DNA from: Halorubrum lipolyticum DSM 21995
GTDB lineage: Archaea > Halobacteriota > Halobacteria > Halobacteriales > Haloferacaceae
Assembly (NCBI RefSeq): GCF_000337375.1
Contig: NZ_AOJG01000039.1
Span: 1-63,749 of the forward strand
Reading direction: 5' to 3'
Length of the DNA stretch: 63,749 bases
This document shows positions 34,298 to 62,325 of this stretch, piece after piece. The notes beneath the pieces were generated by a model. The model did not search any database. It saw only the letters and a list, made by a program, of their open reading frames with translations, and was not told the origin of the DNA. Within the stretch, counting starts at the first letter, position 1. Every line of letters begins with the position of its first letter. The position numbers were made by a program, and so were the translations under genes.

Positions 34298-34741
34298 TCA
34301 CACAGTAAGATCGAGTGTCAGTTTGACGTACTCAGTCGCCGAACCGTACTCGTTCTCGATTACCTCACAGAGTTCCCGGTTTAGGGTGAGACCACCACGT
34401 GTGATATTTGCCGAGCCGAGGTAGACGAACGAGTCCGAGACGACAGCCTTCGCGTGAAGTCCGTCGATCTCCTGAACATGGACGTGCTCGGGGAGTCTCC
34501 GTTTGATGTAATCGTTGTGCGATTCCCCGGAGCGAAGCAAAAGATGGATTTCCTTCTCCGAGAGCGTTTCCAGCGCTTCAATAAGGGACACCTCTCGAGA
34601 CTCGAACCGGTCGTTGATCGGGAGACTGAGGGAGACGTCGCTCAGCCAGGGCGAGACCACGACGACAGGGTCGCAGTGCAGTAGCGTGAACCCGATGAAA
34701 TACGAGAGGCTCTCAGAAGGTAAGGAAAACGCTCTTGTCAT
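34298..34741 (-). CDS. dpdK: DpdK-like phospholipase-D-fold nuclease
   Basis: A 147-residue protein with a single HKD motif: HAKAVVSDSFVYLGSANITRGG fits H-x-K-x4-D-x6-G-S-x-N. One HKD motif implies action as a dimer, as in Nuc-type nucleases. An early strand VVVVSPWLSD is typical of the fold. I chose ATG 34,741 (MTRAFSLPSES) because the longer in-frame extension is the shadow of the helicase gene, which it then overlaps by 29 nt. A small PLD protein directly behind a giant helicase is the dpdJ-dpdK arrangement of Dpd systems; DISARM drmC is the closest alternative. Confidence 0.72.
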   Translation of the reverse strand: MTRAFSLPSESLSYFIGFTLLHCDPVVVVSPWLSDVSLSLPINDRFESREVSLIEALETLSEKEIHLLLRSGESHNDYIKRRLPEHVHVQEIDGLHAKAVVSDSFVYLGSANITRGGLTLNRELCEVIENEYGSATEYVKLTLDLTV

Positions 34742-37700
34742 CGAATTCACCTGCTGGAGGTAGTTCTCGGTCAAACATCTCAGTGCTAGTCTGGTCAGCG
34801 GGAACTGTTTCAGTAATATCCTCTCGAAGGGCTTCGAGCAGGACGTAACTGAGTGAGTCACTCTGATCCGTCGCGGCGATACACTCCCCGAGATGGAGGT
34901 TCTCCACGCAGCCGTCGATATCGGGGGAGTAGAACACCGTTTTTGCCCGGTCGACATCGGATAGATCGACGCTTAGCGCATCGACGGCAGTATCGGGGAA
35001 CTCGTCTACCCCGTCTACCTGCTTCTGAGCGATTGTCTGCTTGACCCGAAACGCGTCGGTGGCGTCGATTTCCTCGTCGATTGCGAACTGTTCGGCTTTG
35101 TCAACGCTGGACAGGACTTCTTGAACGACCCGATCCACCACTGACTCGAACGGGGTATCGAGTGCTTCTCTGACCGCCGCCTCGACATCGGGTTCAGCGG
35201 TCGATGTACAGAGCTGGTCGACGAAGGGTTCACTCGCCCACAGGCGTTCGTTGATAACTTGTGAGTTGTATCCGACCCGGTTGATCGCTTCCAACACTGT
35301 CCCGGGGTCGTTCGATAGGTCCTCGAAGACCAAGTCGACGACTCCCTGGCCACCCTCTGTTCGTTCGAAGATGTACACCTCGCCTGCATCGCGGTCGAAG
35401 CCGTAGAACAGCATCGAGGTGTTAACGGCGCTGATATCCGAGACGATCTGGAGGTAGAAGTGTGCTGCCGTATGATACGCGACGTACTCGTAGTCGATTT
35501 CCTCGAACTCGTGGTAGCGTTCGACGAGCGAACGAACGTCCTCGTCTGCGACTCTCTCGAGGAACGACTCGAGATCGAACACGAGTCCTCGTGTGTCGAT
35601 TTGGAAGCCGAGTTTCTCTTCCGGGCTGTCGAGTTCCACCTCGAACGGGTCCCGCTGATCGAAACTCACCTGCGTCCCCCATGACTGAGCAGGACGGATA
35701 CTCAGCGTAACTCCGTCGAGAGTTACCTCCGAGGAGACGTCCGCAAGCGTTACCGAACCTGTCCGCTCCGTTTCTGAGCGGAGTTCGACGTTCGTACTCA
35801 CCTGGGGGTTCGAATGGATTTTCCCCAGTTCACTTTTGTCGTGGCGTAGGCAGCTATCGATATCGGTGATTACCTGGTAGCACACGGGACAGTACCGGAC
35901 GATATTCATTGCATCCTCACTCAAATCGGCCATCGCGGACAGCTCGATTGAATCAGGGATGAGGATACCGTCCTGAATCTCTCCACTGACGTGCTGAGAG
36001 TAGTCCAATTCGACGCCGTCTTCCGTAACTCGAGTACGCGGTAGGAACGCGTACATCTGGTTGGTCTCCGATTGGTACTCCGATCGATACGGCGTGTAGG
36101 TACTCACGAGCTTGTCGATCGACTCATCAGTACTGTCGCCGTTATCGGGATTGAAGACGCTAAAGAAGCGCCCAGCACCGCCGAAGTAGTTTTGAGGGAT
36201 GTACCAAACCTCTCCGAGGCTACGGTCGTTCACGCCGAGATACTGCTCGAAGTAATACGCGCCGCGGAGGAGCCGCTTGACGGCGTAGAGACTGAGGTGT
36301 GGGTTGCTAAACGCGACGTATTCCTCTAATTCGTCGAGTGCCTCGATGAGGTAGTGGATACGTTTCTGTGTGCGGTAGTAATCCTTGATCCGTTCATCGT
36401 CGCTCAGATTGTAGAGCTGCATAGCAGCGTCGTGGACGTCATTGAGTCTGTCTGTCCGAACTTGTGGAATCTCTCGGTCCGTTGCACGGTCCACACGGCT
36501 CCGGAATTTCATCAACGGGCCGGTAAGGCTGAACAGATCCGCGAGCAGGTCATCGAAATGTCGTATCTTACCGTGTGTATCCCCGTCGGGGATTTCTGAT
36601 GCAGTCTCTCGGAGGTCTGCTAGGTTAGATTCAAGCGAGTCTACTTCTTCTTCATATCCCGTTTCCCCGAGCGCCTCGAGCTCATCCTCATAGCCCGACA
36701 CCTGTCCGGAGAAAGCGTTGATCAGTTCGAGTACCTGATCTTGGACCTTGTGAACATAGGTGTTGACCGTTTCTTCTCCTCGTACTACGTTTCCGTCATC
36801 GAGCTCGAAGAATGACTCAATCTCCTCGAACGTCTCGCGTTGGTCTTCGAGGTGTGACCTGAGCCTCGCACGCGCCTCGCCGACGAGTTCCTCTGAGAGT
36901 AGAGGCTGTGAAGCGACGTCGATTCCAAACTCCTCGTCGAAGAATTCCCCCGGCGAAAGCAGTAGATTACGGTAGGCGTCGAACTCGAGTCGATCTCCGA
37001 GATATTCGTCGAGGAACTGTTCACCGGGGTCACGAAGGCTGAGATTGGGCTGGTCTGCGATTCCGAGCGACACCTCGTAGTACTCACGGAACCGTGAGTG
37101 GACCCATTCAATGACATCGTTGTCTGTCTTGAGTGGTGTGCGGATGTCAGAGTCGAGGAACCGGTCCGCCCGGTAGAACATGTTCGAGTCCCCCGTCAGA
37201 CTGGAGAGCATCACCGCAACGTGTGCGTCCATCCCTTCCTTCCGCGCGGCGCGACCAGCACGCTGCTTGAACGAGGAAAGGTCCCAAGGTGTCCTATACT
37301 GCGTAATCGTCTTGATTTCCCCGACGTCGATTCCTACTTCTAAGAACGACGTGGACAGAAGGACGTCGCTGGAACCGACGTCACCCGAGTCGAAACCGTG
37401 TTCGGCAGAGACCGGCATGAACGAGAGGTGTTCATCGAGGAACCTGTGATCCATCGCCTCAGCAACGGCCGCCCAGTCTTCGACATCATCGTCGCCGTCA
37501 CCGAGGTGGTAGCGCCAGAGCTCTCGGTTGTGGTCCGCGTCGAGAAGCTGCGTGTATTTTTGATTGATTTGCGAGATACTATCGATGAAGGCGAGCATCT
37601 TCCCACGCTGCCCGGAGGACTGCTCAAGGAGGCTGTGTCCGAGGAGAAGATGCTGTTGGATCGACATCGACGACGCCCCTGGCCCATCAGGCGCGGCGAG

Positions 37701-38789
37701 CATGAAGTAGTAGTGTTCGTAATCGTCGTGGTCGTCATCGAAATCCGATGCGCCGGGTTCGACGGTGTGGATGTCGTCGTTCGACACACCGAAGAGGCGC
37801 TTTCCGAATCGAGCCGCATTGTCGATGGTAGCGCTCGACCCCAACCAGAGGATTGGCTGCTCGGTAATCGCGTTGACGTTCTCGATGATCTTCGACGCAT
37901 GAGCCCCTCGAATCTGGGTGTTCATGTGGACCTCGTCTAGGACGATTGTTTCGAAGTCATCGACCAGCGAATAGTGGGGCTTGAGAGCGAACCCTTCCAG
38001 TGACTCAAGTGTCGTGAGAACGATGTCGGGACGATTGTTGAACACCATATCGTGGCGCGACAAGATCAGCTCACGATCGGTGAACGAGTGGTCCGGGTTG
38101 GCCTCACAACGGAGCGTGTAACTCTGGGAAGTTCCGTGGTACTCGAACGCGTTCGGGCTGCCTTCCTCGCCACACCAGCAGTTGGCGAGTTTGAACCGAG
38201 GGCGGCCGCTATCACCAGTGAAGAAGGTCTGATCGCCCTCGACCTCGTTCATTTTGTACGGCATGCCACCGACGTAGACACCGACGGAGAGCTGATCATC
38301 GGTGTTTGAATTGATCTGGTGGATGTGTTCGAGGACACGACCCAGTTGATCCTGTAGCAACGCCCGACTCGGGTAGACGATGGCCGTCGACTCCTGTCGT
38401 CCATCACGAAGCAGCTGGTAGAGTGGACCCAGGAACGCCTCCGTCTTGCCGAATCCGGTGGGTGCAGAAAACACGGCAGCCTTGTTCTGATTCGACTCTC
38501 GCCGTTCCCGGTCGAGTTCATCGACCGTCTGCCAGCTCTCGACTTGGAAGTCTAGTGGATCGAATCCGAACAGGTCGATGATTTCTTGAACAAACTCATC
38601 AGACCCGGTGTACGGGCTCGTCTGTCGTCGCTTCTGACGCTCACGTCTGTACTTGAGTGCCTCGGTAACGAAGGGAGGATCCGCCTGCTCCGTCTTGAAT
38701 ATCCGGCGGTTATGAAGCATCGCCTCGATCAGCGGCTGAATATCGTCGTTTAGCCGAGATGGCTTCGTGTTCCGGTCTACAAATTGCAT
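34713..38789 (-). CDS. dpdJ: DpdJ-like SF2 helicase with DUF1998-like C-terminus
   Basis: A 1,358-residue DEAD/DEAH-type helicase. Motif I is APTGFGKTEAF (about residue 111), Ia YPSRALLQDQL, II LDEVHMN (about 283), III SSATIDNA, and V-VI LLSTSFLEVGIDV then QRAGRAARKEG. A coiled-coil region follows, then a zinc-like site with CPVCYQV and a C-terminal domain with FERTEGGQGVVDLVF like DUF1998. This plan is shared by DpdJ and DISARM DrmA. It is followed by the overlapping PLD gene and preceded by the coiled-coil gene with an 81-nt gap. It would translocate on DNA during restriction. Confidence 0.75.
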   Translation of the reverse strand: MQFVDRNTKPSRLNDDIQPLIEAMLHNRRIFKTEQADPPFVTEALKYRRERQKRRQTSPYTGSDEFVQEIIDLFGFDPLDFQVESWQTVDELDRERRESNQNKAAVFSAPTGFGKTEAFLGPLYQLLRDGRQESTAIVYPSRALLQDQLGRVLEHIHQINSNTDDQLSVGVYVGGMPYKMNEVEGDQTFFTGDSGRPRFKLANCWCGEEGSPNAFEYHGTSQSYTLRCEANPDHSFTDRELILSRHDMVFNNRPDIVLTTLESLEGFALKPHYSLVDDFETIVLDEVHMNTQIRGAHASKIIENVNAITEQPILWLGSSATIDNAARFGKRLFGVSNDDIHTVEPGASDFDDDHDDYEHYYFMLAAPDGPGASSMSIQQHLLLGHSLLEQSSGQRGKMLAFIDSISQINQKYTQLLDADHNRELWRYHLGDGDDDVEDWAAVAEAMDHRFLDEHLSFMPVSAEHGFDSGDVGSSDVLLSTSFLEVGIDVGEIKTITQYRTPWDLSSFKQRAGRAARKEGMDAHVAVMLSSLTGDSNMFYRADRFLDSDIRTPLKTDNDVIEWVHSRFREYYEVSLGIADQPNLSLRDPGEQFLDEYLGDRLEFDAYRNLLLSPGEFFDEEFGIDVASQPLLSEELVGEARARLRSHLEDQRETFEEIESFFELDDGNVVRGEETVNTYVHKVQDQVLELINAFSGQVSGYEDELEALGETGYEEEVDSLESNLADLRETASEIPDGDTHGKIRHFDDLLADLFSLTGPLMKFRSRVDRATDREIPQVRTDRLNDVHDAAMQLYNLSDDERIKDYYRTQKRIHYLIEALDELEEYVAFSNPHLSLYAVKRLLRGAYYFEQYLGVNDRSLGEVWYIPQNYFGGAGRFFSVFNPDNGDSTDESIDKLVSTYTPYRSEYQSETNQMYAFLPRTRVTEDGVELDYSQHVSGEIQDGILIPDSIELSAMADLSEDAMNIVRYCPVCYQVITDIDSCLRHDKSELGKIHSNPQVSTNVELRSETERTGSVTLADVSSEVTLDGVTLSIRPAQSWGTQVSFDQRDPFEVELDSPEEKLGFQIDTRGLVFDLESFLERVADEDVRSLVERYHEFEEIDYEYVAYHTAAHFYLQIVSDISAVNTSMLFYGFDRDAGEVYIFERTEGGQGVVDLVFEDLSNDPGTVLEAINRVGYNSQVINERLWASEPFVDQLCTSTAEPDVEAAVREALDTPFESVVDRVVQEVLSSVDKAEQFAIDEEIDATDAFRVKQTIAQKQVDGVDEFPDTAVDALSVDLSDVDRAKTVFYSPDIDGCVENLHLGECIAATDQSDSLSYVLLEALREDITETVPADQTSTEMFDRELPPAGEFDDKSVFLTF

Positions 38790-38870
38790 GAGAAGAAAGG
38801 GATACTATTGTCGTTTACCCGCCCGTTCTTCAAGCTTACTAACACCTCGTAACGACGGGAGGAAAGGAGA

Positions 38871-39551
38871 CTACGAGAGTGTCAGCTCAATATATTCGCC
38901 GATATCAGACTCAGCGAGCAGCGTCCGCTGTTCGGGTTTGAGGTCGGCGTATGAGAGGCGTTCATCGTCGATCATCCGCTCGATCAGCGACCTGATATCC
39001 GGAGGATAGTGGCCAAACAGTGTCTCTTGAAGTTCATCAAACGCCTCACGCATCTCCTGACCGTATTCGCGGGCATTCTGAGCTAACTCCTCAAACTTCA
39101 CGTCTTCCTCCGAATAGACGTGCTCCTTCCACCGCCAGTCGTCGAGGAGGCCGCCGAGAGCTCGGAGTCGCAACTCGTCCACGCGTTCGACGCGATCGTT
39201 CAGCCGCTGCATCGCGGTAACCGTGGAATTGTGCTTCAGGCGAAGTTCCTGGATCCGGTTCTGTACCGTCGTCTCCGCACTCTCTACTTCTGATTCGAGC
39301 GCCGAGAGACGTTCCTCAATGGTTTCGTATTCCCCGCGTTCGAGCAAATCCATGACCTCGTCGACAGACTGGCGTGCCGAGGTGTCGATTTCGACACGTT
39401 CGTCGAAGAACGCACTTGCGAGTTCACGCTGGAGGAGTGTTTCCTCCATCGTCTCCGCTAGTTCGTCCAGTTCGTCAGCGAGATGCTGACGTCGATACTG
39501 CTTCTGTACGCTTTGCAGCTTGGCTTCGAGCGACTCACTGTCAGTCGACAT
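38871..39551 (-). CDS. Coiled-coil protein in the DpdI position
   Basis: A 226-residue, almost fully helical protein with heptad-like segments (LEAKLQSVQKQYRRQHLADELDEL; ERLSALESEVESAETTVQNRIQEL). I chose ATG 39,551 (MSTDSESLEAKL), which overlaps the end of the ATPase gene by 11 nt; the upstream in-frame extension lies inside that gene. There is no catalytic motif. Its place between a DpdH-like ATPase and a DpdJ-like helicase fits DpdI. A structural or bridging role in the complex is likely. Confidence 0.6.
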   Translation of the reverse strand: MSTDSESLEAKLQSVQKQYRRQHLADELDELAETMEETLLQRELASAFFDERVEIDTSARQSVDEVMDLLERGEYETIEERLSALESEVESAETTVQNRIQELRLKHNSTVTAMQRLNDRVERVDELRLRALGGLLDDWRWKEHVYSEEDVKFEELAQNAREYGQEMREAFDELQETLFGHYPPDIRSLIERMIDDERLSYADLKPEQRTLLAESDIGEYIELTLS

Positions 39552-42426
39552 AGTAGCCTCCGATCTCGAGGAAGTTCTTTGCAAAGTCGGATTCGGTGCC
39601 ACCGCCGACAATCGAAATATCGTCGTAACGCTCGTAGACGTTGGTTTTCGTGAGTTTCATGCTGATCAGTATCGCTTGTAGCCGTTCGTCAGCCGACCTG
39701 TTCTCAAGGTCACCAGCGAGACGAGCGGCGTCCGCCGCCTCGTCGATAGCTTGCTGATCTAACGCCACGAACTTACCGAGTGACTCGACCATGTCGGTGT
39801 CCACGTGGTCATACGTCCGGAGCGTTTCGAGAATGCCATCGATATTCGAGATAGAGACTGAGGCGAGTTCATCGGAGACTGTGGTGACCGTCTCCTCTCT
39901 ATACTCGCCTTCCAGCTCTTCGAACAATTGGTTGAGGTCGTACGAGATATCCGCAATATCCCGAATCTTGCTGTCCGTATCGAAGCGCACACGAGACGAG
40001 ACACGCTGGATTCGACCTCGACCAAGCCCTTCGAAGACGGCAGTAGGAGGATGCTCTTCGAGCCGCTCACGGACACGAGCCACATCGAGCGTGTTCGCGT
40101 TAGCGCCATAAAAGGCACTGACCATCTCCTCGAACCGGTCGGCTTGGTTCATGAACTTGACGAGGTCATTGAACCCATCTTTCGAGACCTCTTGTCTCAG
40201 TGCTTCTCGAAGTTCCGAATCAAGCGTGTAGGAGCCAGATTCGCTGAATCGCTCGCTCAGTCGCTCGGCGGTGACTTCCTCGAACGGAGAACTTAGAAGA
40301 ACCACGTACGCGTAGCCCGCGAGAGCGAAATCCTCGAATGTGTGGTTTGCGTTCTTTTTGAAGAATTTCAGGTCCGAACGAAGATGATGTTCGACGATCT
40401 CCTGCTGCCACTGTCGTGCATACCCTGTCAACTGCGTTCCAAGGCCTCTGAGCAACTCGTCGAAGTCCGCCTGTGATTTCTCTTCCTCCCGGTAGATACC
40501 GAACTTGAGGAGCTTTTTCAGATCGGATAGGCGGAACTCTTGTGGATCGATCACGATCTGATCGTCATCAGGCGACCGCTGTTGACTCGCAAAGACGAAC
40601 GGATCCTTCTGGCTGCTCAAATTATACCGCAGTCCCATCCCATCGAACAGTTCCAAGTCGTTGGTGAGATGTTTGATCGAATCGGTCAGCCCGATACGGA
40701 GGTATCGGGTGATCTCAGAGAACTCCCCGGGATTGCTCTGCCACGGCTGGACGTTCGGTCGGAGATCTTGGATTAACCGTTCGGCTTTGCTGAGCTGTGG
40801 CGGTTCAGGAGGTTCCGGTCCCGTGGGTCCCGGTCCCGTGGGTCCCGGTCCAGTTGGGCCCGGGGACTCGATATCAGTCGGGACTGTGACGAAACCATCC
40901 GAACGAGTGACCCCGTCAGTTCCCTCCACTGCTTCAGATTCTCCGAAGGCGTCGACGAACCTAGCGTCGACCTTGATCCCGTCAGTTGTCGGAACTCCGT
41001 ACCACCGCGCAAGGTTCGCGAGAGATTCTGCGCTCTCATAGATTGGGGTGGCTGGATCAACATTGTTAGTTAACACGTTTAGACGGTCAGCACTCGACGG
41101 GGCGTCGACGTACCCTTCGTAGTAATCACGGAGCACATCGAATACGGCCATAACGTACTCTCGCGGGGACTGTTCGTCGTCTTGGAGCCCAGCGTAGACG
41201 CGCTCGAGGAAGGGCTCGTTGAACGGGAAGAGGTCTCGGAATGACTCATCACAGAACCCGCAGTCAGCACAGATTGACTCAGAAGGAGCGGGATTCAACG
41301 AGAGGTCGAGCCCATCCCCACTACGGTCGTACTCCACGCTCCCGTCGAAGGACTTGAAGTAGCCGAGGTACGGCCGGATGAAGTCGACAGCGGAGTCCTC
41401 GTCGAGGAAAAGGACGCTGTTCGAGTTCTGGCGGTTCGTTCGATAAAATTCGAAACGGTCCTCAGCAGTCTGCGTGTGGAGAACGTCCGTTGAGTCTCGA
41501 GTGCCAGCGACCACGAAGTCCCAATTGTCGCTTGGTTTATCACGTTCCATGTAGTTTCGGAGCCGCTTCCCCTCCATTGCCGTGATAGCGAAGTCCTCGA
41601 AGATGATCACCGGGCGCGTATCCGTGAACCGGTCTCCCACGCGCTCAAGAACATCGCCGAGGGATGCCGTCTGGTAGCGCTCCCTGATCTCCCGCCAGAG
41701 TTCCTCATTGAACGCTTCCACGGCGTCTTCGACATCAATAGAATCCTCAATGACCTGTAGGAAATCGTTCCGGCGGTACGCTTGCTCGGTAACAAACTTG
41801 ATCTCTTTCGCGTATTCACCCTTTTCGACGAGAAGTGAGAGTTGGTCCTGAACAAATTCTCGGATCTTTTCTTCTTTCCCCTGTGCGTCAACTTCGTTGC
41901 CGCGCGCACTGAGGTTGAGGATCGCGCCGGATGTTGCGTTGTTGGCGACAACACTCGCGTTTTTCTTGAGGTCCTCCCGGAGCTGCTGAAAATTCGATGC
42001 GCCGGGCAGTTCTTCGTCGAAGTGCTTCTCGTAGAACTCCGGGATTCGTTCCGAGAGGAGCGTCATCAGGTCGTCGTCCTTGTCGACGTGCAGGATTGGT
42101 CGACCGTCTTCCTCAAGTTGGTGTGATAAGAAAGCACACAACTCTGACTTCCCGGTCCCTACCTCTCCCTCGATAACGACCGAGAAATTCCCGACTCGCT
42201 GGTCGGTGAACTCGCGGTACACTTCCTTCTCTCCGACGACTTCCTCTTCTGATCGAGTCCCCTGCGGCGACCGGAATACCTCGATCGGCCGGTGTGTGAA
42301 CTCGAACAGGTCTTTGTTGTCTGAGCGTACCGCTGCGACTTTCGAGAACAATTGTCGGAGCGTCTTCTCGTCGACTGCCTCGAAGTGCGGGCACTGAAGC
42401 TCCGAGTCTTGCTGAATCGTACTCAT
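39541..42426 (-). CDS. dpdH: DpdH-like P-loop ATPase
   Basis: A 961-residue STAND/AAA-like ATPase. Walker A is GEVGTGKSELC (about residues 88-98) and Walker B is PVIIFEDFAI (about 275). A possible zinc site CADCGFCDESF lies near residue 385. A collagen-like linker of repeated GPTGP units followed by PEPPEPP occurs near residues 520-542 (about 40,803-40,865), separating the ATPase half from a helical C-terminal half. Size and order match DpdH of bacterial Dpd systems. It starts just 1 nt before the end of the DpdG-like gene region on the same strand, and is translationally coupled to the next gene. Confidence 0.65.
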   Translation of the reverse strand: MSTIQQDSELQCPHFEAVDEKTLRQLFSKVAAVRSDNKDLFEFTHRPIEVFRSPQGTRSEEEVVGEKEVYREFTDQRVGNFSVVIEGEVGTGKSELCAFLSHQLEEDGRPILHVDKDDDLMTLLSERIPEFYEKHFDEELPGASNFQQLREDLKKNASVVANNATSGAILNLSARGNEVDAQGKEEKIREFVQDQLSLLVEKGEYAKEIKFVTEQAYRRNDFLQVIEDSIDVEDAVEAFNEELWREIRERYQTASLGDVLERVGDRFTDTRPVIIFEDFAITAMEGKRLRNYMERDKPSDNWDFVVAGTRDSTDVLHTQTAEDRFEFYRTNRQNSNSVLFLDEDSAVDFIRPYLGYFKSFDGSVEYDRSGDGLDLSLNPAPSESICADCGFCDESFRDLFPFNEPFLERVYAGLQDDEQSPREYVMAVFDVLRDYYEGYVDAPSSADRLNVLTNNVDPATPIYESAESLANLARWYGVPTTDGIKVDARFVDAFGESEAVEGTDGVTRSDGFVTVPTDIESPGPTGPGPTGPGPTGPEPPEPPQLSKAERLIQDLRPNVQPWQSNPGEFSEITRYLRIGLTDSIKHLTNDLELFDGMGLRYNLSSQKDPFVFASQQRSPDDDQIVIDPQEFRLSDLKKLLKFGIYREEEKSQADFDELLRGLGTQLTGYARQWQQEIVEHHLRSDLKFFKKNANHTFEDFALAGYAYVVLLSSPFEEVTAERLSERFSESGSYTLDSELREALRQEVSKDGFNDLVKFMNQADRFEEMVSAFYGANANTLDVARVRERLEEHPPTAVFEGLGRGRIQRVSSRVRFDTDSKIRDIADISYDLNQLFEELEGEYREETVTTVSDELASVSISNIDGILETLRTYDHVDTDMVESLGKFVALDQQAIDEAADAARLAGDLENRSADERLQAILISMKLTKTNVYERYDDISIVGGGTESDFAKNFLEIGGYYVD

Positions 42427-42427: not shown

Positions 42428-43267
42428 TTAGATCAATTTAATCGCGTTTGCTTGGCTATCAATTCCATCATACGGAGGGATACCGCCAAGGGTAACGGCG
42501 CCGGCATCACCGTACTCAACGATCCGTATTTCATCATCTCGGATGAGTTCGAACAGGACACGAGCAATCCCTTCTGGGATCGCACCGTCAGACGTCGTTT
42601 CGACATAGAGCAGATTCTCACGGAGCCAGCGGAGATACTGCTCAATCACGATGCCGGGTGTCCCATCGATATTTATCGCACTGTCTTCAGCAGCGAGATC
42701 AAGTGAGTATCGAATTAATGCTGGATCAGGGTAGACGGTATGCTCCCGGCCACTCACTTTGTGTACCAGTCCGAGGAAATGGACGAGCCGCGTCCAGTTT
42801 GCGAACTTGTTATCATTATGCATTATTAATCCCTGCTGGGACTGTGGCCGATAATTGATTTCGGCGTACCAGTCGTCGATATCGGTGTAGATCGGTTCCT
42901 CGTTATTTTCGAAATGCTGGATGTCCTTGTCGAGTAAGAACTTGTAATTGAGCAAGACAGCGGCTTGCTTGCCCCAGTCATTCGACTGGCACTCCTGTGC
43001 AAGGTTGTGGAGTACGGTTAGTCGGAAGTTCCAGCGCTCGTCTCCGACATCCCACTCATACTCACGAGCGTAGTACGCTTCCTCCTCTTTGCCGATCATG
43101 CGGAGGAGCCGAAGCCCGTCTAGGATGGAATCAAGCCCAGAATCGATTTGCGTGTCACTCTTGATGTGAGACTTCGTCTCGCTCCCCTGACTGATCGATC
43201 GATATACCGGGAGGAGTGGCCCTGGCGTCTGAATCGCGTTGAGGAGATATCCTTCGCTACTACTCAT
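42428..43267 (-). CDS. dpdG: DpdG-like protein
   Basis: A 279-residue protein without a recognised catalytic motif. The N-terminal 60 residues look like a winged-helix (SHIKSDTQIDSGLDSILDGLRLLRMIGK), and the rest is mixed alpha/beta. In length and in its place directly before the ATPase gene it corresponds to DpdG. Sequence identity to bacterial DpdG cannot be judged here, so the name rests on order and size. Start and stop are tightly packed: ATGA overlap with the upstream gene and 1 nt before the ATPase gene. Confidence 0.5.
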   Translation of the reverse strand: MSSSEGYLLNAIQTPGPLLPVYRSISQGSETKSHIKSDTQIDSGLDSILDGLRLLRMIGKEEEAYYAREYEWDVGDERWNFRLTVLHNLAQECQSNDWGKQAAVLLNYKFLLDKDIQHFENNEEPIYTDIDDWYAEINYRPQSQQGLIMHNDNKFANWTRLVHFLGLVHKVSGREHTVYPDPALIRYSLDLAAEDSAINIDGTPGIVIEQYLRWLRENLLYVETTSDGAIPEGIARVLFELIRDDEIRIVEYGDAGAVTLGGIPPYDGIDSQANAIKLI

Positions 43268-44196
43268 CTGTTAGGCTGTTGTAACCAGGCATGGTATCGT
43301 TTATGAATTGATGATTCGTCGGGGTCAATCTCGGCCGCTCTGTCTGCGGCGTCCTTCACTACCGGCGTCCGTGCCGCGTAAGACGGGTCGAACGTCTGTC
43401 CATCGTCGCTCACCGCACGGTTGAGGCTTCGAGCGACATCGGACGCGGTTTCCCGGTCCCACTCAATGCGCCTGCGTAGCCACCGTTCGAGACCCGTCAC
43501 GTCGTCCTCGTCGAGTGGAACGGAGCCGTACTCGTCTGGTCGCGCAAATATCTGCCCGAATACTGCGTAGAGCGGCAGGAACGGTGCATCGGGAAGAACT
43601 TTGAACAGGTCTTCGGTATCCTCGAGTTCCTCCCCGGTGATGAACTCATAGAGGTTCGCGTTGTCGTGGATGAAGAGATTCTTTGTGTCCAGTAGCGGGA
43701 GGTCCCACCCGGCGTTCTTATACACCTGCTCGAATCCGGTGTACAGACGCTGATAGGAGCCAACGTTTTCGACGAACTGTTCCTGGTAGAGCGGACGCTG
43801 TCCACCACGTGGCGTGAACCGACGTGAGTCCGTGACCACGATGAGCGTCTCAGGACGGGCTGCGTAGCGGCTGATTAGATGATCGATTGAATACTCGGTT
43901 TCGCCCTCATAATACTCACTCGTCGTGACGACCAAATCGTTGCGAAACGCGTCCTCCTCGAGTTGGCCGAGGACTTTGTAGTCGTAGTCGAGGTAGTCGT
44001 ACTGATGCGTGTACGACGGGAACTCCCCACCGGTGTTGAGTGAGCGCCACGACGTAGGGTAGGTGAACGTCTGGAACCCGAGATAATTGATGGCCGGAAG
44101 CGATCGTAGCATCCACCAGTACGTCTGTCCGGTGTCGTCGTGGATGGCCGCGATATCGGCGTTGCTGAGCCGCTTGAACGTCGATGGCTCTGTCAT
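43264..44196 (-). CDS. Unknown operon protein
   Basis: A 310-residue acidic protein that I do not recognise. It is aromatic-rich in the N-terminal third (QTYWWMLRSLPAINYLGFQTFTYPTSW; HQYDYLDYDYKVLG) and has a central strand ETLIVVTDSRRFTPRGG. No nuclease or ATPase motif is clear. Overlaps of 4 nt (ATGA) on both sides tie it to the giant helicase upstream and the DpdG-like gene downstream, so it should be part of the same complex. It has no obvious counterpart among the Dpd proteins I know. Confidence 0.6.
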   Translation of the reverse strand: MTEPSTFKRLSNADIAAIHDDTGQTYWWMLRSLPAINYLGFQTFTYPTSWRSLNTGGEFPSYTHQYDYLDYDYKVLGQLEEDAFRNDLVVTTSEYYEGETEYSIDHLISRYAARPETLIVVTDSRRFTPRGGQRPLYQEQFVENVGSYQRLYTGFEQVYKNAGWDLPLLDTKNLFIHDNANLYEFITGEELEDTEDLFKVLPDAPFLPLYAVFGQIFARPDEYGSVPLDEDDVTGLERWLRRRIEWDRETASDVARSLNRAVSDDGQTFDPSYAARTPVVKDAADRAAEIDPDESSIHKRYHAWLQQPNR

Positions 44197-53645: not shown

Positions 53646-53675
53646 CCACCAAATAAAATAGTATCGCCGGTTCCG

Positions 53676-55523
53676 CTACCCCGTCGTCGCTTCGGCGTTC
53701 GGTATCGACTCGCGCTGCGTGACGATCGTGTTCGGTGTCGTGCTTACCGTCACACCCGTCTCACCGTTCACCGTCCAGTGCTGGCCACGCACCGACTCGA
53801 ATACGTACCACGCACCTGACTCCCAGTTAAATTCGCATATATGTCGGTTCCACACGTCAAGCTGCACCGACTCCCCGTCAACGGTGACTGCGCGGAACAC
53901 GTGCCGTCGACCGTCTTCAGTCAGGTGCTCACGAATCTGTAACACCACGGGTGTGGAATGCTGTGCCGTTTCGTCGATCTTGTCTACGGTCCGTACGAAC
54001 GAACGCGACTCCGCCGCATCATGTTCTGGTTCACTCGGTTGTTCCGACGCAGCTGACTCCACGTTCTGGGGTTCCTCAGTCGCTGTCGCCGCTGAGTCCG
54101 GCTTATCACCGGGCTCTTCCCTGCTCAGAGACCTCGCTTCAGTGTCCGACGTGGGTGGAGTGGACGAGGACTGTGCTGCGAGTTGGTCGGCCACTGATTC
54201 GAATTCTGCTACTTGCTCGCGCAGGTGTGCCACGCGGTGTTCCAGCTCTGACGCAGTAATGTTATCAGGTAGACGCTCAAGCGCGTCTTTTCCGTCTTCG
54301 ACAACCGATTGCATGACGTCTTCCGCTTCCCCTAGTTGGGACGTTTCTTTGAGTGATGAACCCCGCTGCGTCAGCGTGTTAATCGTTTCTTCTGCCTGCT
54401 GCACCTGTTTCTCGTGTTCAAGCCGGTCAGTAAGCGACTCGACGGTCTCAATCCGATTGTACACTGTAGCTTCTTCCTCCGCAAACCACTCTGCATCCGC
54501 TGATTGTCCCACATCCTGTGCCGCCCGATACGCGGCATGCGCATTCTTACAGGCTTCTAGCCCCGTATCGACATCACCAGTTTCGACTGCATCCTGCGCT
54601 GTTGTGACGTGTGCGTCTCCATCACTTACGACTTTGTCGTACTGGGCTTCAGCTTCGGATGGAATCGCGTCTAACCGATCTTCGACGTCATTCACACGCA
54701 GCCGCAAATCACGATCTCCTGACAGTGTGGTTAATGCTTCTCGTGTCTCACTCGCCGCGGCACGCATCGCTGGTATCCGGTCGTTCGCCTCAGCCACCTC
54801 ACCGGTTGCAACCAGTGTTTCGATCCGGTCGCACGTCGCCTCAAGTCCAGCCACTAATCGGAGTTTCTCACGGTCAGTGTACATTTCCAGTGTGGCTGTG
54901 TCATCGGACGCCTGGTCAGGTGACTCGGTACCGGATGAAAGTCCAGCCCCATTAGTCGAACCGTCTGACTCCACAGCTGTCAAGCCATCTGCATTGCTCT
55001 CTTCATACCGATCTTCAACTGATACGATGAGGCGCGCGGCGAGCGCCGTCCCGATTCCATCAACAGTTGTCAACTCCGCTTTCGACGCTGCGAGAATATC
55101 GTTGGCGTCTTCATACCCAGCGTCACGCAGCGCCGCTGCTTTCTGCTCTCCAATCCCTGGGAGTTCCTCAACGTTTGGGACTACAGCACTATCTGAAGCA
55201 GGTGAGGCGCTATCTGTCGTGCTACTGGACGTTGATGACTCCGTGTCAGCAGTAGCGATAGCAACAAAAAACAGGATTGTACCAATCACAAGCGACTGCC
55301 ACACTGGAAGGCCAAGTGGCCCAGTCACGAGCGATAATAAGACACCACCCCATCCAGATACGACTGGCAGAACCGTCGATAAGGCGTTGAAACCCCAACC
55401 GACAACCGCAACCCCTACGCCAAGGAAATAAACCAGCATACCGAATCCATCCCACGCTTCGCTTTGCGTGAACAGCGCAATCAGAAGCAACACAATCGCC
55501 GCAGTCAGTAACATACCCACCAC
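53676..55523 (-). CDS. Membrane protein with HhH, coiled coil and OB-like domain
   Basis: A 615-residue protein, apparently the first gene of the large minus-strand operon. Three membrane helices occupy residues 1-95. A helix-hairpin-helix pair follows (VEELPGIGEQKAAALRDAG; LTTVDGIGTALAARLI), then a long coiled coil (residues about 210-440), an acidic linker, and a C-terminal OB-like domain with SVQLDVWNRHICEFNWESGAWY. The same LDxW-H-W-G-Y pattern occurs in the neighbouring helicase. A membrane-anchored DNA-binding protein is likely, perhaps placing the complex where DNA enters the cell. Confidence 0.7.
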   Translation of the reverse strand: MVGMLLTAAIVLLLIALFTQSEAWDGFGMLVYFLGVGVAVVGWGFNALSTVLPVVSGWGGVLLSLVTGPLGLPVWQSLVIGTILFFVAIATADTESSTSSSTTDSASPASDSAVVPNVEELPGIGEQKAAALRDAGYEDANDILAASKAELTTVDGIGTALAARLIVSVEDRYEESNADGLTAVESDGSTNGAGLSSGTESPDQASDDTATLEMYTDREKLRLVAGLEATCDRIETLVATGEVAEANDRIPAMRAAASETREALTTLSGDRDLRLRVNDVEDRLDAIPSEAEAQYDKVVSDGDAHVTTAQDAVETGDVDTGLEACKNAHAAYRAAQDVGQSADAEWFAEEEATVYNRIETVESLTDRLEHEKQVQQAEETINTLTQRGSSLKETSQLGEAEDVMQSVVEDGKDALERLPDNITASELEHRVAHLREQVAEFESVADQLAAQSSSTPPTSDTEARSLSREEPGDKPDSAATATEEPQNVESAASEQPSEPEHDAAESRSFVRTVDKIDETAQHSTPVVLQIREHLTEDGRRHVFRAVTVDGESVQLDVWNRHICEFNWESGAWYVFESVRGQHWTVNGETGVTVSTTPNTIVTQRESIPNAEATTG

Positions 55524-56618: not shown

Positions 56619-56846
56619 TTATTGATCCTCGTCTACGGTATCTGAGTCAACGCTTTGTGAAACGCGTTGGTAGACACGAGGTAGGAACTGGAGAGCGTGA
56701 CAGGGAAGGCGATCAGTTTTCCCACTGAGGTAGTCCTCAACGCCTTCGAGGTGATCGGACCAGCTTGAGCGACAGACAGCCGAGTTACATCGACTGTGAC
56801 ATGGTGACTGCCTATCTAAAGTTCCATTTTTAGCGGAAGTGGCATC
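56619..56846 (-). pseudogene. Possible small zinc-finger gene remnant
   Basis: The minus strand is open for 75 codons and encodes plausible protein: QSPCHSRCNSAVCRSSW, then DHLEGVEDYLSGKTDRLPCH, and a tail ending DTVDEDQ. The cysteines and histidines suggest a zinc-binding motif. There is no ATG, GTG or TTG start in frame, so it is either a decayed gene or a chance frame. The remainder of the gap 56,522-56,979 shows only a TATA-like ATTTTAGG near 56,948 for the next plus-strand gene. Confidence 0.35.
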
Positions 56847-56979
56847 TTATTGACTAATATGACGACGAAGGGCGAAATACACTCTCGGAGGAGGCAGTAT
56901 AATAGAGCGTGCTTCTCGAATTAGCCGCCGGACCGCTACGTGGGAAGATTTTAGGTCCCCCGCGTTGGATAAGCTCTCA

Positions 56980-57438
56980 ATGCCTTCGCTGCTAGTACAG
57001 TCCTGCTCGGCCACAAAGAATCAGGTGACAGGGCCGACACGGGCACTAGACGTCTACGACGGATACTTTTTCAGAATAATCAAAAAGGCGAAACGAGAGG
57101 ATGCCTTCAATTCCGACATCGACATTTGTATTCTCTCTGCAGAATACGGACTTATCGACGCTGAAGACACGATTACTACGTATGACCGGCGAATGACCCC
57201 TTCTCGTGCTGAGGAGCTCCGTGAGGAGGTGACCGGTGCCATTAGTAAACGTATCGAAAAATCGAGATATGACGAGATAGTCCTAAACTTGGGGAAGGAG
57301 TACCTAGAAGCGGTTGGCGACTTATCTGACCGATACGATGTCGACATATCGACAGTCCAAGGTGGAGGGATCGGGGAGAAGGGAAAACAGCTGAAGCGTT
57401 TCGTCCGGTCGGATACTGTTCCCTCGGTGATTCTCTGA
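56980..57438 (+). CDS. DUF6884-like protein coupled to a DpdA-like transglycosylase
   Basis: A 152-residue protein. It begins MPSLLVQSCSATKNQ, a strand followed by a C-S-x2-K motif, then ALDVYDGYFFRIIKKAK and ICILSAEYGLIDAEDTITTYD, all typical of the DUF6884 family. The C-S-x-T-K motif recalls the PCSxTKPY motif in the fused protein at 60,304-62,325. I chose ATG 56,980 because a TATA-like ATTTTA lies about 28 nt upstream; an in-frame TTG exists at 56,965. Its stop overlaps the next start (TGATG), so it is coupled with the transglycosylase and may modify its base. Confidence 0.75.
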   Translation: MPSLLVQSCSATKNQVTGPTRALDVYDGYFFRIIKKAKREDAFNSDIDICILSAEYGLIDAEDTITTYDRRMTPSRAEELREEVTGAISKRIEKSRYDEIVLNLGKEYLEAVGDLSDRYDVDISTVQGGGIGEKGKQLKRFVRSDTVPSVIL

Positions 57439-58679
57439 TGGCCTCTTCCGGCTCACAGCGCCTTGATGATGGAATATTTGAGATTGTTGACGAGGCTGGA
57501 GACGCTCGAAGTGGGGTGATCAGTATAAACGATACCGAACTGGAGACGCCCAATTTGCTACCGGTGGTGAACTTCTATGCCGGTGGCACTGATTCCAGCC
57601 TATACGGCGGTGGTATCCATCGGACAATCAAGGAGTTCATGAATGGAGACGAGGTCATAAACGGCGGGGATTACAGTCGATATTTCGATGGTGTGATGAC
57701 CTCCGTTGCGTCACTCACTGACTACGGCATCTCGAGAGAACGGTACGAAGACTACATCGCTGCACCGATCAGGGAACGCGATGTATTCGATTTTAACGGT
57801 ACCCTCTTTCTTGACTCAGGTGGATTCAAATTCCTCGGCGATGGTACCTTAGATGGCAGCAATTTTGAGGTGGACGTCGATCAGGAGGCGATCGTTGAGA
57901 TACAGCGGAAACTGGGGGGAGACGTCCTCGTAAATCTTGACCGACCAATTGAGCCGGACGACGACTACTCTACTCGTGTCGAAAAAGCTCGACTGACGGC
58001 CGAAAACGTCAACGAGTTCCTTAACCTAACTACCCAGGACGACACGCGATATCTGACACTCCATGGGTACAACTATTCGATGCTCGATACGTTTCTCACG
58101 GAAATTGAGAAAGCCATCGGCAGGGACCGTGTTCATCGTGAATTCGATGGCGTCGCCCTCGGGAGTCTCGTTCCACTCAAAGACAATAAGGGGAAACTGA
58201 TCACTGCTGTGAGTGATTGCCGTGAAGTGCTTAGTGACTGGGGGTTCGAGGAACTCCCCCTCCACGTACTCGGAATCTCTTCTAGTGCGATCCCTCTCTT
58301 GGCTGCAGTCGGTGCAGACACGTTTGATTCGTCATCGTACATTCACTCCGCCATCAACGGGAAATACGATACGTCATTATACAACTCAGAACCCGTAGAC
58401 GAAGTCGATTTTACGGAATGCGACTGTCAGGTCTGTAGTGATGACGTTTTAGTCAATCGGATGGAAGGGGACGTAGAGTACCAGAAAGACAAACTCGGTG
58501 CCGTTGCGATGCATAACCTGATTATTCAAAAAGAAGAAATAAAACGGATCCAATCCGCGATCCAAACACCGGGAGAGGAAGCGTTGAGATCATATATCGA
58601 ACAGTCATTGGGTCGAGAAAAGTCGATGCAACAGCACGCGCATCGCGTTGTGAACGAATCACTTGGAGGGTACTTCTGA
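57438..58679 (+). CDS. dpdA: DpdA-like DNA guanine transglycosylase (TGT family)
   Basis: A 413-residue tRNA-guanine-transglycosylase paralogue. Asp126 in FLDSGGFKF corresponds to the general acid/base, and Asp297 in GADTFDSSSY to the nucleophile. The zinc site is complete with canonical TGT spacing, C328-x-C330-x2-C333-x25-H359. There is no PUA or other tRNA-binding domain, unlike archaeal TgtA, which supports a DNA substrate. DpdA enzymes exchange guanine for preQ0 in DNA. It is coupled to the DUF6884-like gene upstream and abuts the GHKL ATPase gene downstream. Confidence 0.82.
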   Translation: MASSGSQRLDDGIFEIVDEAGDARSGVISINDTELETPNLLPVVNFYAGGTDSSLYGGGIHRTIKEFMNGDEVINGGDYSRYFDGVMTSVASLTDYGISRERYEDYIAAPIRERDVFDFNGTLFLDSGGFKFLGDGTLDGSNFEVDVDQEAIVEIQRKLGGDVLVNLDRPIEPDDDYSTRVEKARLTAENVNEFLNLTTQDDTRYLTLHGYNYSMLDTFLTEIEKAIGRDRVHREFDGVALGSLVPLKDNKGKLITAVSDCREVLSDWGFEELPLHVLGISSSAIPLLAAVGADTFDSSSYIHSAINGKYDTSLYNSEPVDEVDFTECDCQVCSDDVLVNRMEGDVEYQKDKLGAVAMHNLIIQKEEIKRIQSAIQTPGEEALRSYIEQSLGREKSMQQHAHRVVNESLGGYF

Positions 58680-60230
58680 ATGTCGACAACTAAAACGCCA
58701 CAAGTCAACGAAGTAAACGAATTTTTAGAGATCGCTAGCGACTTCGAGGATCCGCTTGAAGTGATCCGTGAGTCGCTGTCGAACAGTTATGATGCGGGTG
58801 CGACAGAAGTCGAAATCACCATCCGAGACCGACCGATCGGATCGGAGATTGTCATCGAAGACGACGGAGAGGGGATGGATCACGCCGATCTCGAGTCGTT
58901 CTTCGATCTGGGAAATTCCACGAAGCGCGGCCGTCAAAACGGCTCTATCGGGTACAAGGGCCACGGAACGAAGATTTTCTACAAAAGCGAGGAGGTACTC
59001 GTCAATACCACGAAGAACGGGACCAATTTACGCGCACAGATGGAGCAGCCGTGGGAAAAGCTCAATAACCGGACCATGCCCGAGTACGTACTGAACGAGG
59101 AAGCAGTCAAAGAAGGGAACTCCGGGACGCACATTCGCATTACCGGGTTCAAATCCGGCCACGGTTTCTCGCCAGCATCGCTCACTTACAACAAAATCGA
59201 GCACTACCTGAAATGGAAGACGCTCGCCGGGTCAACAGGTCACTTCTTCACCGACGACTTCCGAGAGATGGAGATAACGGTCACTCTCGGCGACGAAATC
59301 GATGATACACGGGATCAACTGGTGATGAACAACAAGCTTGAGTTCCCGACCGAGCAGCTTGAGCCTGGTGAGGGACAGTTCTCTGAATCTCGGATGTGTA
59401 AACACTACCCGCCACGGGAACTCACGGTCGAGACCGAAAATGGGATTGAAACCACTGTAGAGGTGGTTGGAATGGTGGGAGGCAAAGACGCTCGTAACGA
59501 ACTCCCCACTTATGGAAAGCACTCGGCACAGTTCGGTGTCTGGCTGGCAAAAGACCATATCAAAGTTGAGCGGGTCAACGACACCATCTCACACGACAAC
59601 GAGTTCCTCCATTTCTTCTTCATCGCAAACTGCCAAGACCTCGAATTGTCGGCAAACCGTGAAAAGATTCGGAATAAGTCTAGCCCGGTATATCAGGCAA
59701 TCGTAGAGGAGCTCAGCCACTACCTTTCGAAGATTGCATCAGATCCGTGGTTTAAAGACTACTTGTCTCACCGTCGTAAGGCGAAACTCACCCGTCGCGC
59801 AGAGTCCCAACAATCATCTATCGAAAAGCGTGAGCAACGGATTCAAGACCGAAACCGATTCACGCCATCCAACGACGCCGAAGTCGTGCTCGGGTTGGAA
59901 CGCTCGAACCGCTTTGGGGCTGAACCGGAGATCACAGTTGAAGATTACGACCCAAGTGCGGAGGTCAACGCGCTGGTTCGTCAGGATTCGAACCTCTATG
60001 CGAGTTCGATTCACCGTCGGCTTACGGATCACTTTGAGGCGGATAAACCGCTTGAGAGCGTCGATAAAATAGTTTGTTGGTCGTACGGCGACCGCGACGA
60101 GCTGAGCGAACTGGAGCGCTCAGGGTATCATAGTGGAGAGGTCACGATTGACCTTGAGAACGACCGACTGATCTATAACAATGGTCGTCGGCATAATATC
60201 CATATCGTCACGGTTCAAGACAGACTGTAG
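58680..60230 (+). CDS. GHKL (Hsp90/MORC-like) ATPase
   Basis: A 516-residue protein with an N-terminal GHKL ATP-binding domain: N-box ESLSNSYDAGA (about 29-40), G1 EDDGEGMD (about 58-65), and lid IGYKGHGTKI (about 86-95). A second domain like the S5 fold follows (LELSANREKIRN near 320). The C-terminal 120 residues are unrecognised. Similar proteins clamp DNA in MORC, MutL and GyrB families. It starts directly at the stop of the first DpdA-like gene and precedes the second by 73 nt, so it probably assists base exchange in DNA. Confidence 0.85.
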   Translation: MSTTKTPQVNEVNEFLEIASDFEDPLEVIRESLSNSYDAGATEVEITIRDRPIGSEIVIEDDGEGMDHADLESFFDLGNSTKRGRQNGSIGYKGHGTKIFYKSEEVLVNTTKNGTNLRAQMEQPWEKLNNRTMPEYVLNEEAVKEGNSGTHIRITGFKSGHGFSPASLTYNKIEHYLKWKTLAGSTGHFFTDDFREMEITVTLGDEIDDTRDQLVMNNKLEFPTEQLEPGEGQFSESRMCKHYPPRELTVETENGIETTVEVVGMVGGKDARNELPTYGKHSAQFGVWLAKDHIKVERVNDTISHDNEFLHFFFIANCQDLELSANREKIRNKSSPVYQAIVEELSHYLSKIASDPWFKDYLSHRRKAKLTRRAESQQSSIEKREQRIQDRNRFTPSNDAEVVLGLERSNRFGAEPEITVEDYDPSAEVNALVRQDSNLYASSIHRRLTDHFEADKPLESVDKIVCWSYGDRDELSELERSGYHSGEVTIDLENDRLIYNNGRRHNIHIVTVQDRL

Positions 60231-60303
60231 CAGATCTTATTGAGGTCGTCTCATCGCGGAACGACCGAACTTATCACATCCCATCGTTAATGACGCGTAG
60301 AGA

Positions 60304-62325
60304 ATGGCATCGTTTGAGACCGACGCGACTGACGATGCTGGCAACGCACGTCGCGGTACAATCCACACACCGCACGGCGACGTTCAGACACCGGCATTCT
60401 TCCCTGTAGTCAATTTTATCGGTGGGCCTAACGAGAAATCCGGCGGAATTTGGAGTCGATTGCGGAATCATCTCTTCGGAGAACCCGAGTTTCAAGGCGC
60501 GATGTTCCAAGCGATGAGTTTCTTAGATTTCAATATCACACCTGAATCGCTTGAGAACTGGCGCTCGAAACCGATCCACGACCACTTCACTGATCACGAT
60601 CCGGTCAAGCCGTATCACTCACAGCCAGAGAGTTTTACTAAGCCGTTATTCGTAGACTCAGGCGGATTCAAGCTTCTAAACTCCGATACCTTCGGCGACC
60701 CGCCAACGGAGGGTGGCGATGATAATGACTGGGCAATTTACACGAATCCAGAGAGTATTCTAGATCTACAGCTCGATTATGGCGCTGACATCATCGCTAC
60801 CCTTGACTATCCGATTCCGCCGAACCTGAACGATGAGGAGACGACCCAACGAATGGAGGACAGTATCGACAGCGCCATTCGCTGTCTCGAACTCTTAGAA
60901 GACCAACCAGACCCGCCTGCGGTATATATCGCTATTCACGGTCACGACTACGAAACTATCAATTGGTACGTCGGGACGTTCCTTGACCGTGCGACGCATA
61001 TTGACAAGTCATTTGAAGGATTTGCAATCGGGTCACTCGTCCCGCTTAGAACGAACGTCGAAATGCTGGTTGACATCGTGCAAGGTGCGAAAGATGCGAT
61101 TCCTGACGACCGAGAAGATGATCTCGGGCTTCACCTATTCGGGATTAGTGGAAAATTCACAGCACTCCTAGCCCTTCTTGGCGCGGATTCATTTGACTCG
61201 TCAAGCTACATGCAAGCAGCACAGTTCAAGAAGTTCATTAATCGAGAGATCGGGGTTTCAGATGAGGAGCTCGTCCGGAATCCAAACGCTTCGACACACG
61301 ACTTGGGTGATTTTGGTGTTGACGTTGACCGGACAGCCGACGCACGATGGGCAGCGGACTGGTCGAAATTCACTGCGGATCAGATTCCCGACGATTGGGG
61401 GTGTCAATGTCCCGCATGCGATCATCTACGGCGGATAGGTTTCGATCAGCTACAGGGCACGATGTACGACAGCGAGTCGTATGATCGAGACGGCGAGTAT
61501 ATGAAGAGCGATTTTTACGCACTGATGAGCTATCATAACTTCTGTGTCTACCAAGACGAAATGAATCACGTGCGGGAGCTGATCAGCAACGGTGGCGGGG
61601 AGTTGCTTGAATACGTTGCCAAGATGGCTCGCAACGATGTCGGGAATATCAAGCGAGCGCTGAAACGGGCAACCGTACGAGATCGAGAGTTGGCACAGCA
61701 ACTCCGAGAACGTGGCTACAACCGGTTAGTCGCCGATCAGAGCGACGCGGAGCAGGAACGGCTTGATTTGGATATTCCGGTCGATGACCAAGAGATTTCA
61801 CTTGAGCACACACCGGAGGATTTCAACATTCTTCAGCGGAAGGACTACCGTGTCGGCGATGAGCGCGTACTGCTCGTTATCCCGTGTAGCCAAACCAAGC
61901 CGTATTCTAATTCTCGAACGCACCGCGTCGTGGCAGACGTAACCGCTGAGTGGAACGATCAGATCCACAAAGTGACTGTCTCTGGCATGTACGGCCCTGT
62001 ACCCGAACAGTACGAAAGCCTCTCGCAGATCAAATCATACGAGTACGTGCTGACAAACGCTGAGAAACAGCGCCAACAACTCGTCGTGAACCGTTTGGTC
62101 TCCTACCTCGAAGAATACGGCTCACAGTTCGATGCCATCGTTGGCTACGCCACCAGCAAAACCTACCGTACCGTAATAGAGCAAGCGTTCTCCGAGTACG
62201 GAGATGGCGTTGTCCTCCCAAAAGACCCGAAAATGCGCGCACTCACTGAACACTTCAGAACAACTAATCTCGAAGAGCTATCTGAGCACCTAGATGATGT
62301 GCTCTCATCCACACCATCCCAGTAG
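60304..62325 (+). CDS. dpdA: DpdA-like transglycosylase fused to an ArcS-type core domain
   Basis: A 673-residue fusion. The N-terminal 450 residues are a TGT fold with Asp118 in FVDSGGFKL, Asp298 in GADSFDSSSY, and zinc ligands C367, C369, C372 and H411; the last loop is longer than in the first DpdA-like protein. Residues about 520-673 match the archaeosine synthase core with the full motif P527-C528-x3-K532-P533-Y534-x2-S537-x2-H540. ArcS adds lysine to preQ0 in tRNA. Unlike ArcS, the catalytic aspartates of the TGT part are kept and no PUA domain follows. A DNA base-exchange enzyme that also elaborates preQ0 is the best inference. Confidence 0.85.
   Translation: MASFETDATDDAGNARRGTIHTPHGDVQTPAFFPVVNFIGGPNEKSGGIWSRLRNHLFGEPEFQGAMFQAMSFLDFNITPESLENWRSKPIHDHFTDHDPVKPYHSQPESFTKPLFVDSGGFKLLNSDTFGDPPTEGGDDNDWAIYTNPESILDLQLDYGADIIATLDYPIPPNLNDEETTQRMEDSIDSAIRCLELLEDQPDPPAVYIAIHGHDYETINWYVGTFLDRATHIDKSFEGFAIGSLVPLRTNVEMLVDIVQGAKDAIPDDREDDLGLHLFGISGKFTALLALLGADSFDSSSYMQAAQFKKFINREIGVSDEELVRNPNASTHDLGDFGVDVDRTADARWAADWSKFTADQIPDDWGCQCPACDHLRRIGFDQLQGTMYDSESYDRDGEYMKSDFYALMSYHNFCVYQDEMNHVRELISNGGGELLEYVAKMARNDVGNIKRALKRATVRDRELAQQLRERGYNRLVADQSDAEQERLDLDIPVDDQEISLEHTPEDFNILQRKDYRVGDERVLLVIPCSQTKPYSNSRTHRVVADVTAEWNDQIHKVTVSGMYGPVPEQYESLSQIKSYEYVLTNAEKQRQQLVVNRLVSYLEEYGSQFDAIVGYATSKTYRTVIEQAFSEYGDGVVLPKDPKMRALTEHFRTTNLEELSEHLDDVLSSTPSQ

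Follow-up and report, generated by a model that had tools for sequence, protein, structure and literature searches.

Does a haloarchaeon mark its own DNA with a 7-deazaguanine and destroy DNA that lacks the mark? The question is raised by a block of genes in a Halorubrum genome that a preliminary description, working from the sequence, had read as a Dpd-type modification-restriction island, with restriction-like genes on one strand facing two DpdA-like enzymes on the other. Bacteria, phages and a halovirus are known to carry deazaguanine bases in their DNA; for the chromosome of an archaeal cell, we found in the literature no test of such self-marking. The window considered here, that is, the whole stretch of DNA that was analyzed, takes up the first 63.7 kb of its contig, which is 71 kb long.

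The ORFs lie where that description had placed them, and profile homology, shared gene order, co-occurrence and linkage to a preQ0 pathway give good support to its core reading, an archaeal island of the Dpd-like modification-restriction kind. The block is one real, coherent island, with a mechanism that we infer; it probably marks the DNA of its host with an unusual guanine-like base and destroys invading DNA that is unmarked. As to the further claim of a distinct archaeal architecture, the arrangement is already outlined, in the main text of a preprint, as Type I of BRIGADE (Bell et al., bioRxiv, September 2025; PMC12458937). In that text, BRIGADE systems are predicted from sequence, in halophilic archaea only, and are defined by a gene cluster predicted to be for 7-deazaguanine, together with a nuclease of the PLD or PD-(D/E)xK type and, as a rule, a pair of YprA helicases; Type I combines one ARMADA-like with one Dpd-branch helicase, and Type II has two ARMADA-like helicases. 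Our literature search found no experimental work on any BRIGADE system.

The G+C content of the window drops from ~72% to ~55% from 16 kb onward, so the block sits within a long low-G+C island. The limits originally drawn were too narrow: the minus-strand operon includes two further genes, F and E (43264–48923), which are translationally coupled to gene D, and the preQ0 genes at 20675–23536 form a left extension of the same island. Two genes within 48984–55523, G (a PbeA-like helicase bearing six HNH-associated repeats) and H (a helix-hairpin-helix protein), look like an insertion between the two halves of the system. We rejected both as members because they are absent from the island of Halopenitus malekzadehii, which is otherwise collinear.

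Several neighbors can be recorded alongside. A transposase-like ORF (locus L006, 3804–4625) lies directly to the right of the island, with G+C-rich chromosomal genes beyond it. Positions 24418–28848 of the window encode an SF1 helicase, weakly Cas4-like in its N-terminal region, which recurs near about 12 such islands, and positions 29504–33319 hold a TFB transcription factor paralogue with two uncharacterized genes (products of 379 and 242 aa), a combination that is recurrent beside the helicase and nuclease genes B and A in several genera.

The left extension encodes a supply of preQ0. On the minus strand are QueC, responsible for the last step of preQ0 synthesis (20675–21364; PF06508, 5.8e-73), a QueD-like 6-pyruvoyl tetrahydropterin synthase family protein (22235–22813; PF01242, 4.9e-20) and, between them, a QueE-like radical SAM protein (21459–22235; PF04055, 1.4e-17); a YhhQ/VUT-type queuosine precursor transporter follows on the plus strand (22877–23536; PF02592, 4.4e-39). 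A search of the host's own genome shows this QueC to be the only full-length copy, and several other genomes with J, the first transglycosylase of the island, have a second QueC beside the island plus one elsewhere. Within Halorubrum, full-length QueC is found in 9 of 9 J-positive genomes (window included) versus 4 of 11 J-negative ones (p = 0.004). QueC is wholly absent from 6 of the 11 sampled J-negative Halorubrum genomes, and those without it raise the question of where the archaeosine of their tRNA comes from.

The restriction operon reads F-E-D-C-Bi-B-A on the minus strand. Genes F to Bi overlap or abut (ATGA overlaps at F/E and E/D, and a C/Bi overlap); B and then A follow, with A overlapping B. 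Homology was tested by profile–profile comparison, in a 396-pair matrix, of alignments of 17–22 archaeal homologues with bacterial Dpd proteins, a background in which unrelated non-helicase pairs score ~1e-3 or worse and mostly >1e-2. The bacterial reference islands came from Enterobacter, Nostoc, Agrobacterium, Paenibacillus and Deinococcus, whose annotated restriction operons run dpdE-F-G-H-I-J-K-(D).

A five-gene series resembling DpdG to DpdK had been proposed, and its order and gene sizes stand, as does homology for G, H, J and K. D (42428–43267; 279 aa) is DpdG-like (hhalign 5e-10 over 235 columns), and the bacterial DpdG profile picks up D homologues in 7 islands. C (39541–42426; 961 aa) is a DpdH-like P-loop ATPase (hhalign 1.7e-15 over 524 columns; NCBIfam DpdH, 8e-8). 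B (34713–38789; 1358 aa) is a DpdJ-like YprA-family helicase of the Dpd branch (hhalign 1.7e-42 over 468 columns; NCBIfam DpdJ, 5e-46; PADLOC bits of 159.5 for DpdJ versus 96 for BrxH and 38 for DruE), and its homologues keep Walker A and DEVH invariant. A (34298–34741; ~147 aa) is the one-HKD PLD nuclease of the preliminary description and is DpdK-like (hhalign 5e-18 over 110 columns; NCBIfam DpdK, 6e-13), with HxK and GSxN motifs conserved among homologues; its start was placed at the ATG overlapping the end of B, the ORF being open to 34957.

The member for which homology fails is DpdI. Bi (38871–39551; 226 aa) is a coiled-coil protein that agrees with DpdI in position and size and is kept in 18 islands, but hhalign detects no homology between the two (E = 0.08). 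For the others, profiles built from bacterial proteins only independently recover the homologues of D, C, B and A from archaeal islands, and the NCBIfam matches of C, B and A to DpdH, DpdJ and DpdK all fall below the equivalog cut-offs, which is homology at the family level.

The two genes added at the head of the operon are of a different kind. F (44193–48923), a YprA helicase of the ARMADA/Druantia-like kind, carries an MZB zinc module (PADLOC DruE, 3e-42; MZB, 1.3e-8); it scores 142.6 bits for DruE versus 90 for DpdJ and 56 for DrmA and aligns with Type II helicases at hhalign 1e-50. The branches given here for F and B were assigned by profile scores rather than from a YprA tree. A DUF1998-like domain had been ascribed to the DpdJ-like helicase; the DUF1998/MZB domain is actually carried by F, and the domain scan detected none on B. 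E (43264–44196) is a 310-aa protein of unknown fold, whose AlphaFold model (pLDDT 44) was left out of the fold searches; it matches a 288-aa Type II protein (hhalign 8.7e-10) and is conserved in BRIGADE Types I and II.

On the plus strand, the writer genes J2, J and K abut (TGATG and TGAATG), and L lies 73 nt behind. The domain scan bore out both transglycosylases, as well as the GHKL ATPase and the ArcS-type DUF5591 domain. DpdB (DGQHR/DndB family) is missing, as had been said, with no match in the islands and no Pfam DndB in the genome. DpdC had also been called missing, and here J2 (56977–57438) was overlooked: it is a DUF6884 (DpdC-family) protein (PF21818, 8e-13; PADLOC DpdC, 1.7e-7) in whose homologues C10, S11 and K14 are invariant.

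J (57438–58679) is a DpdA-like transglycosylase (PF01702, 7e-23) in which, on alignment with archaeosine TGT, the catalytic residues D126 and D297 and the zinc ligands C328, C330, C333 and H359 are invariant. L (60304–62325) is a second transglycosylase fused to the DUF5591 domain (PF01702, 4e-29; PF17884, 2e-15); it keeps its aspartates D118 and D298, which are invariant together with C528, K532, P533 and Y534. K (58680–60230) is a GHKL ATPase with a MORC/Hsp90-like fold (PF13589, 4.7e-17; GHKL motifs invariant), and its predicted model (pLDDT 75, moderate confidence) resembles MORC2, SMCHD1 and Hsp90 (Foldseek MORC2, 5.5e-12). The predicted fold class, GHKL/MORC-like, is clear, and K is a plausible candidate for a DNA clamp replacing DpdB.

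J2, J and K occur together at 42 of 42 J loci, a conserved DUF6884–transglycosylase–GHKL triad. At the loci of genomes G143, G295, G028, G370 and G290, there is no L near the triad and a second DUF6884-like gene lies beside J2, as if it stood in for the DUF5591 domain. Adjoining the writer on the minus strand is M (62364–63608), a PD-(D/E)XK-type nuclease candidate whose PD...ExK residues are invariant in 8 homologues and which is 88–90% identical in Halorubrum relatives; it is an accessory gene, present in some islands and not in all.

In a maximum-likelihood tree, J and L form sister clades (97/90), and the small Type II transglycosylase branches beside them (95/92); bacterial DpdA and the large Type II enzyme make up another group, some branches being long. 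Since neither J nor L falls within the bacterial DpdA clade, they are not DpdA orthologues, and a DNA substrate is not deducible from orthology; the NCBIfam DpdA score in the DpdA-clade test was 25.6 bits against a cut-off of 200. In a phylum-wide sample the J family occurs only in Halobacteria, and the L clade takes in proteins from cyanobacteria, Poribacteria and Chloroflexi. No phage relative was found for J, and the three weak matches of L in phage records look like ordinary bacterial tgt.

Two observations on bacterial relatives belong here. In Spirulina (L169, 9989–15892) and Coleofasciculus (L174, 449–4600), an L-clade transglycosylase is followed directly by a DpdJ-like helicase, possibly a minimal relative of the system outside the archaea. 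Bacterial plasmid islands of Paenibacillus, Nostoc and Picosynechococcus carry a short second TGT-family gene near dpdA (L241, 8161–12135; L236, 15190–21371; L237, 1074–7082).

If the two halves form one system, one would expect them to travel together, and the preliminary description had named as evidence against itself an operon occurring mostly without a DpdA-like gene. Among 391 Halobacteria genomes, with J counted as strict relatives, 42 are positive for J, 29 for C and 29 for B. J accompanies C in 26 of the 29 genomes with C (3.1 expected; p = 2e-26) and B in 28 of the 29 with B (p = 3e-31), these being Fisher tests that ignore phylogeny on positives spanning at least 20 genera. The contrary case thus fails, and the exceptions carry another extra transglycosylase: the three C-positive, J-negative genomes have a third, Type II enzyme, and the single B-positive, J-negative genome has L. 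On the other side stand 13 J loci at which neither B nor C is present, comparable to the bacterial Dpd islands without a restriction operon (PMC11888242).

The island is also movable. Set against the island of Halopenitus malekzadehii, the genes of the writer, those for restriction and most of their neighbors are 80–97% identical and collinear, apart from G and H, at 80% identity for the housekeeping TgtA, which argues for horizontal transfer of the block. The halves need not move as one. In Halorubrum coriense, J, K and L are 92–96% identical to those of the window and the que genes 86–97%, as against 59% for J2 and 43–58% for the restriction genes; in Haloplanus ruber the bias is reversed, with 66–74% for the restriction genes, 60% for J and 46% for L. 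A plasmid of Natronosalvus rutilus (NZ_CP100356; genome G277) combines a Type II writer with a Type I F-E-D-C-Bi module, and the same combination is probably present in genomes G387 and G104, where contigs or distances are less clear. Modification and restriction modules are swapped between systems. The simplest inference from a Type II writer beside a Type I restriction module is that different writers produce the same or an interchangeable mark.

Taken as a whole, we consider it probable that this is a BRIGADE Type I island that writes a deazaguanine into DNA and restricts DNA without it. What was observed, and carries this reading, is the set of genes with their homologies and conserved catalytic residues, their co-occurrence and the exchange of modules; that DNA is the substrate, which base finally results and that the unmarked state triggers cleavage are carried over from bacterial Dpd. 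QueD, QueE and QueC would make preQ0, and the YhhQ-type carrier may import precursors. J, probably with L, would exchange guanine in DNA for preQ0, after which J2 and the DUF5591 domain of L could turn the nitrile into an amide or amidine, with K acting as an ATP-driven clamp on DNA in the place of DpdB. F, B, the ATPase C and their partners D, E and Bi would detect unmarked DNA for the PLD nuclease A to cut, M being a possible accessory. More tentatively, the writer could be a new deazaguanine machine, built from two non-DpdA transglycosylases, one of them fused to an ArcS-type converter, and loaded by a MORC-like clamp in DpdB's stead, that puts a converted deazaguanine, possibly deoxyarchaeosine, into a cellular chromosome; the mark might also be a shared language, with unrelated writers of BRIGADE Types I and II able to work with one restriction module.

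Most members of the TGT family act on tRNA, and J matches archaeal TgtA better than the DpdA model; one could accordingly suppose that J and L modify tRNA, adding extra archaeosine or acting at another position, and that the restriction operon is an unrelated defense neighbor. We hold this to be improbable, because canonical TgtA and ArcS genes are separate and lie elsewhere in the genome, the domain scan found a PUA domain in neither J nor L, and both fall far below the TgtA and ArcS cut-offs. Moreover, J almost always co-occurs with restriction genes, and a second transglycosylase type takes part in the module exchange. Nor do we give much credence to an island of the Type IV style, cutting DNA that carries foreign (viral) deazaguanines or other modifications, even if some halovirus DNA contains deazaguanines (HVTV-1, PMC6884629) and a reader of such marks could be useful to the host. 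With a complete preQ0 supply of its own and writers whose active sites are intact, a mark-attacking system would target its own genome, and bacterial Dpd restricts unmodified DNA (PMC11888242, PMC12707154).

Least credible of all is a DISARM/Druantia type system with transglycosylases beside it by coincidence. F does score best to DruE, A has a weak DrmC match, and a YprA-family helicase with a PLD nuclease is what DISARM shares with the island. The preliminary description had counted a DISARM match with a nearby methyltransferase against itself and proposed HMM comparison with the Dpd and DISARM families: the domain scans of island proteins turned up no DNA methyltransferase, and DISARM scores are weaker than Dpd scores (DrmA and DrmC included, with B and A scoring higher to Dpd families). 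A DISARM identity was rejected on these grounds; the Dpd matches of B, C, D and A weigh against this reading too, as does a co-occurrence with J far above chance.

The reading as a deazaguanine-based modification-restriction island gives the locus a wider interest. Halorubrum coriense, H. kocurii, H. cibi and Halopenitus malekzadehii are named hosts of such islands. In exchanging writers and restriction modules, nature has itself run an experiment on what the latter recognize, and a writer without DpdB bears on whether an ATPase with a different fold can take over the role of DpdB.

Among known systems, bacterial Dpd places dPreQ0 or dADG in DNA, and unmodified DNA transforms less well (PMC12707154, PMC11888242 and PMC12839542). 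The island resembles it in having DpdG, DpdH, DpdJ and DpdK homologues that keep the bacterial order; it also has a protein of the DpdC family and a transglycosylase, and is linked to preQ0 genes and a YhhQ transporter. Unlike bacterial Dpd, it has no DpdB, DpdD or DpdE (bacterial profiles of the latter two gave no match in the window), and its transglycosylases fall outside the DpdA clade. It adds the GHKL ATPase K, the transglycosylase–DUF5591 fusion L, helicase F and protein E and has at the DpdI position a protein without detectable homology; the hhalign matrix against bacterial Dpd proteins gave no counterpart for Bi, E or K.

BRIGADE Type II, represented by Natronorubrum aibiense, Haloferax alexandrinus and Halobaculum plasmids, shares with the island E-, D- and C-like proteins, two YprA helicases, two transglycosylases and preQ0 supply or transporter genes. 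It differs in that both helicases are ARMADA-like, at ~1830 aa each, and in its writer, which consists of a large transglycosylase of the DpdA clade, a small one related to J and L, a 300-aa protein and a BREX-type ATP-binding protein in place of the GHKL ATPase.

With Type I, as defined in the main text of the preprint, the island agrees in every feature tested, and we assign it to that class. F is the ARMADA/Druantia-like and B the Dpd-branch helicase; QueC, QueE, QueD, YhhQ, the DUF6884 protein and two transglycosylases make up the deazaguanine cluster; the PLD nuclease A and M, with its PD...ExK residues, lie nearby; and the host is a halophilic archaeon, the J family being confined to Halobacteria in our sample. 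That main text names neither GHKL, DUF6884, transglycosylase, DpdA, DpdG nor DpdH and mentions neither a transglycosylase–DUF5591 fusion nor module exchange, part of which its supplement may hold. The island is a member of a class predicted in silico, and what it adds to the main text, namely the composition of the writer (its triad and its transglycosylases outside the DpdA clade) and the exchangeability of the modules, seems worth following up.
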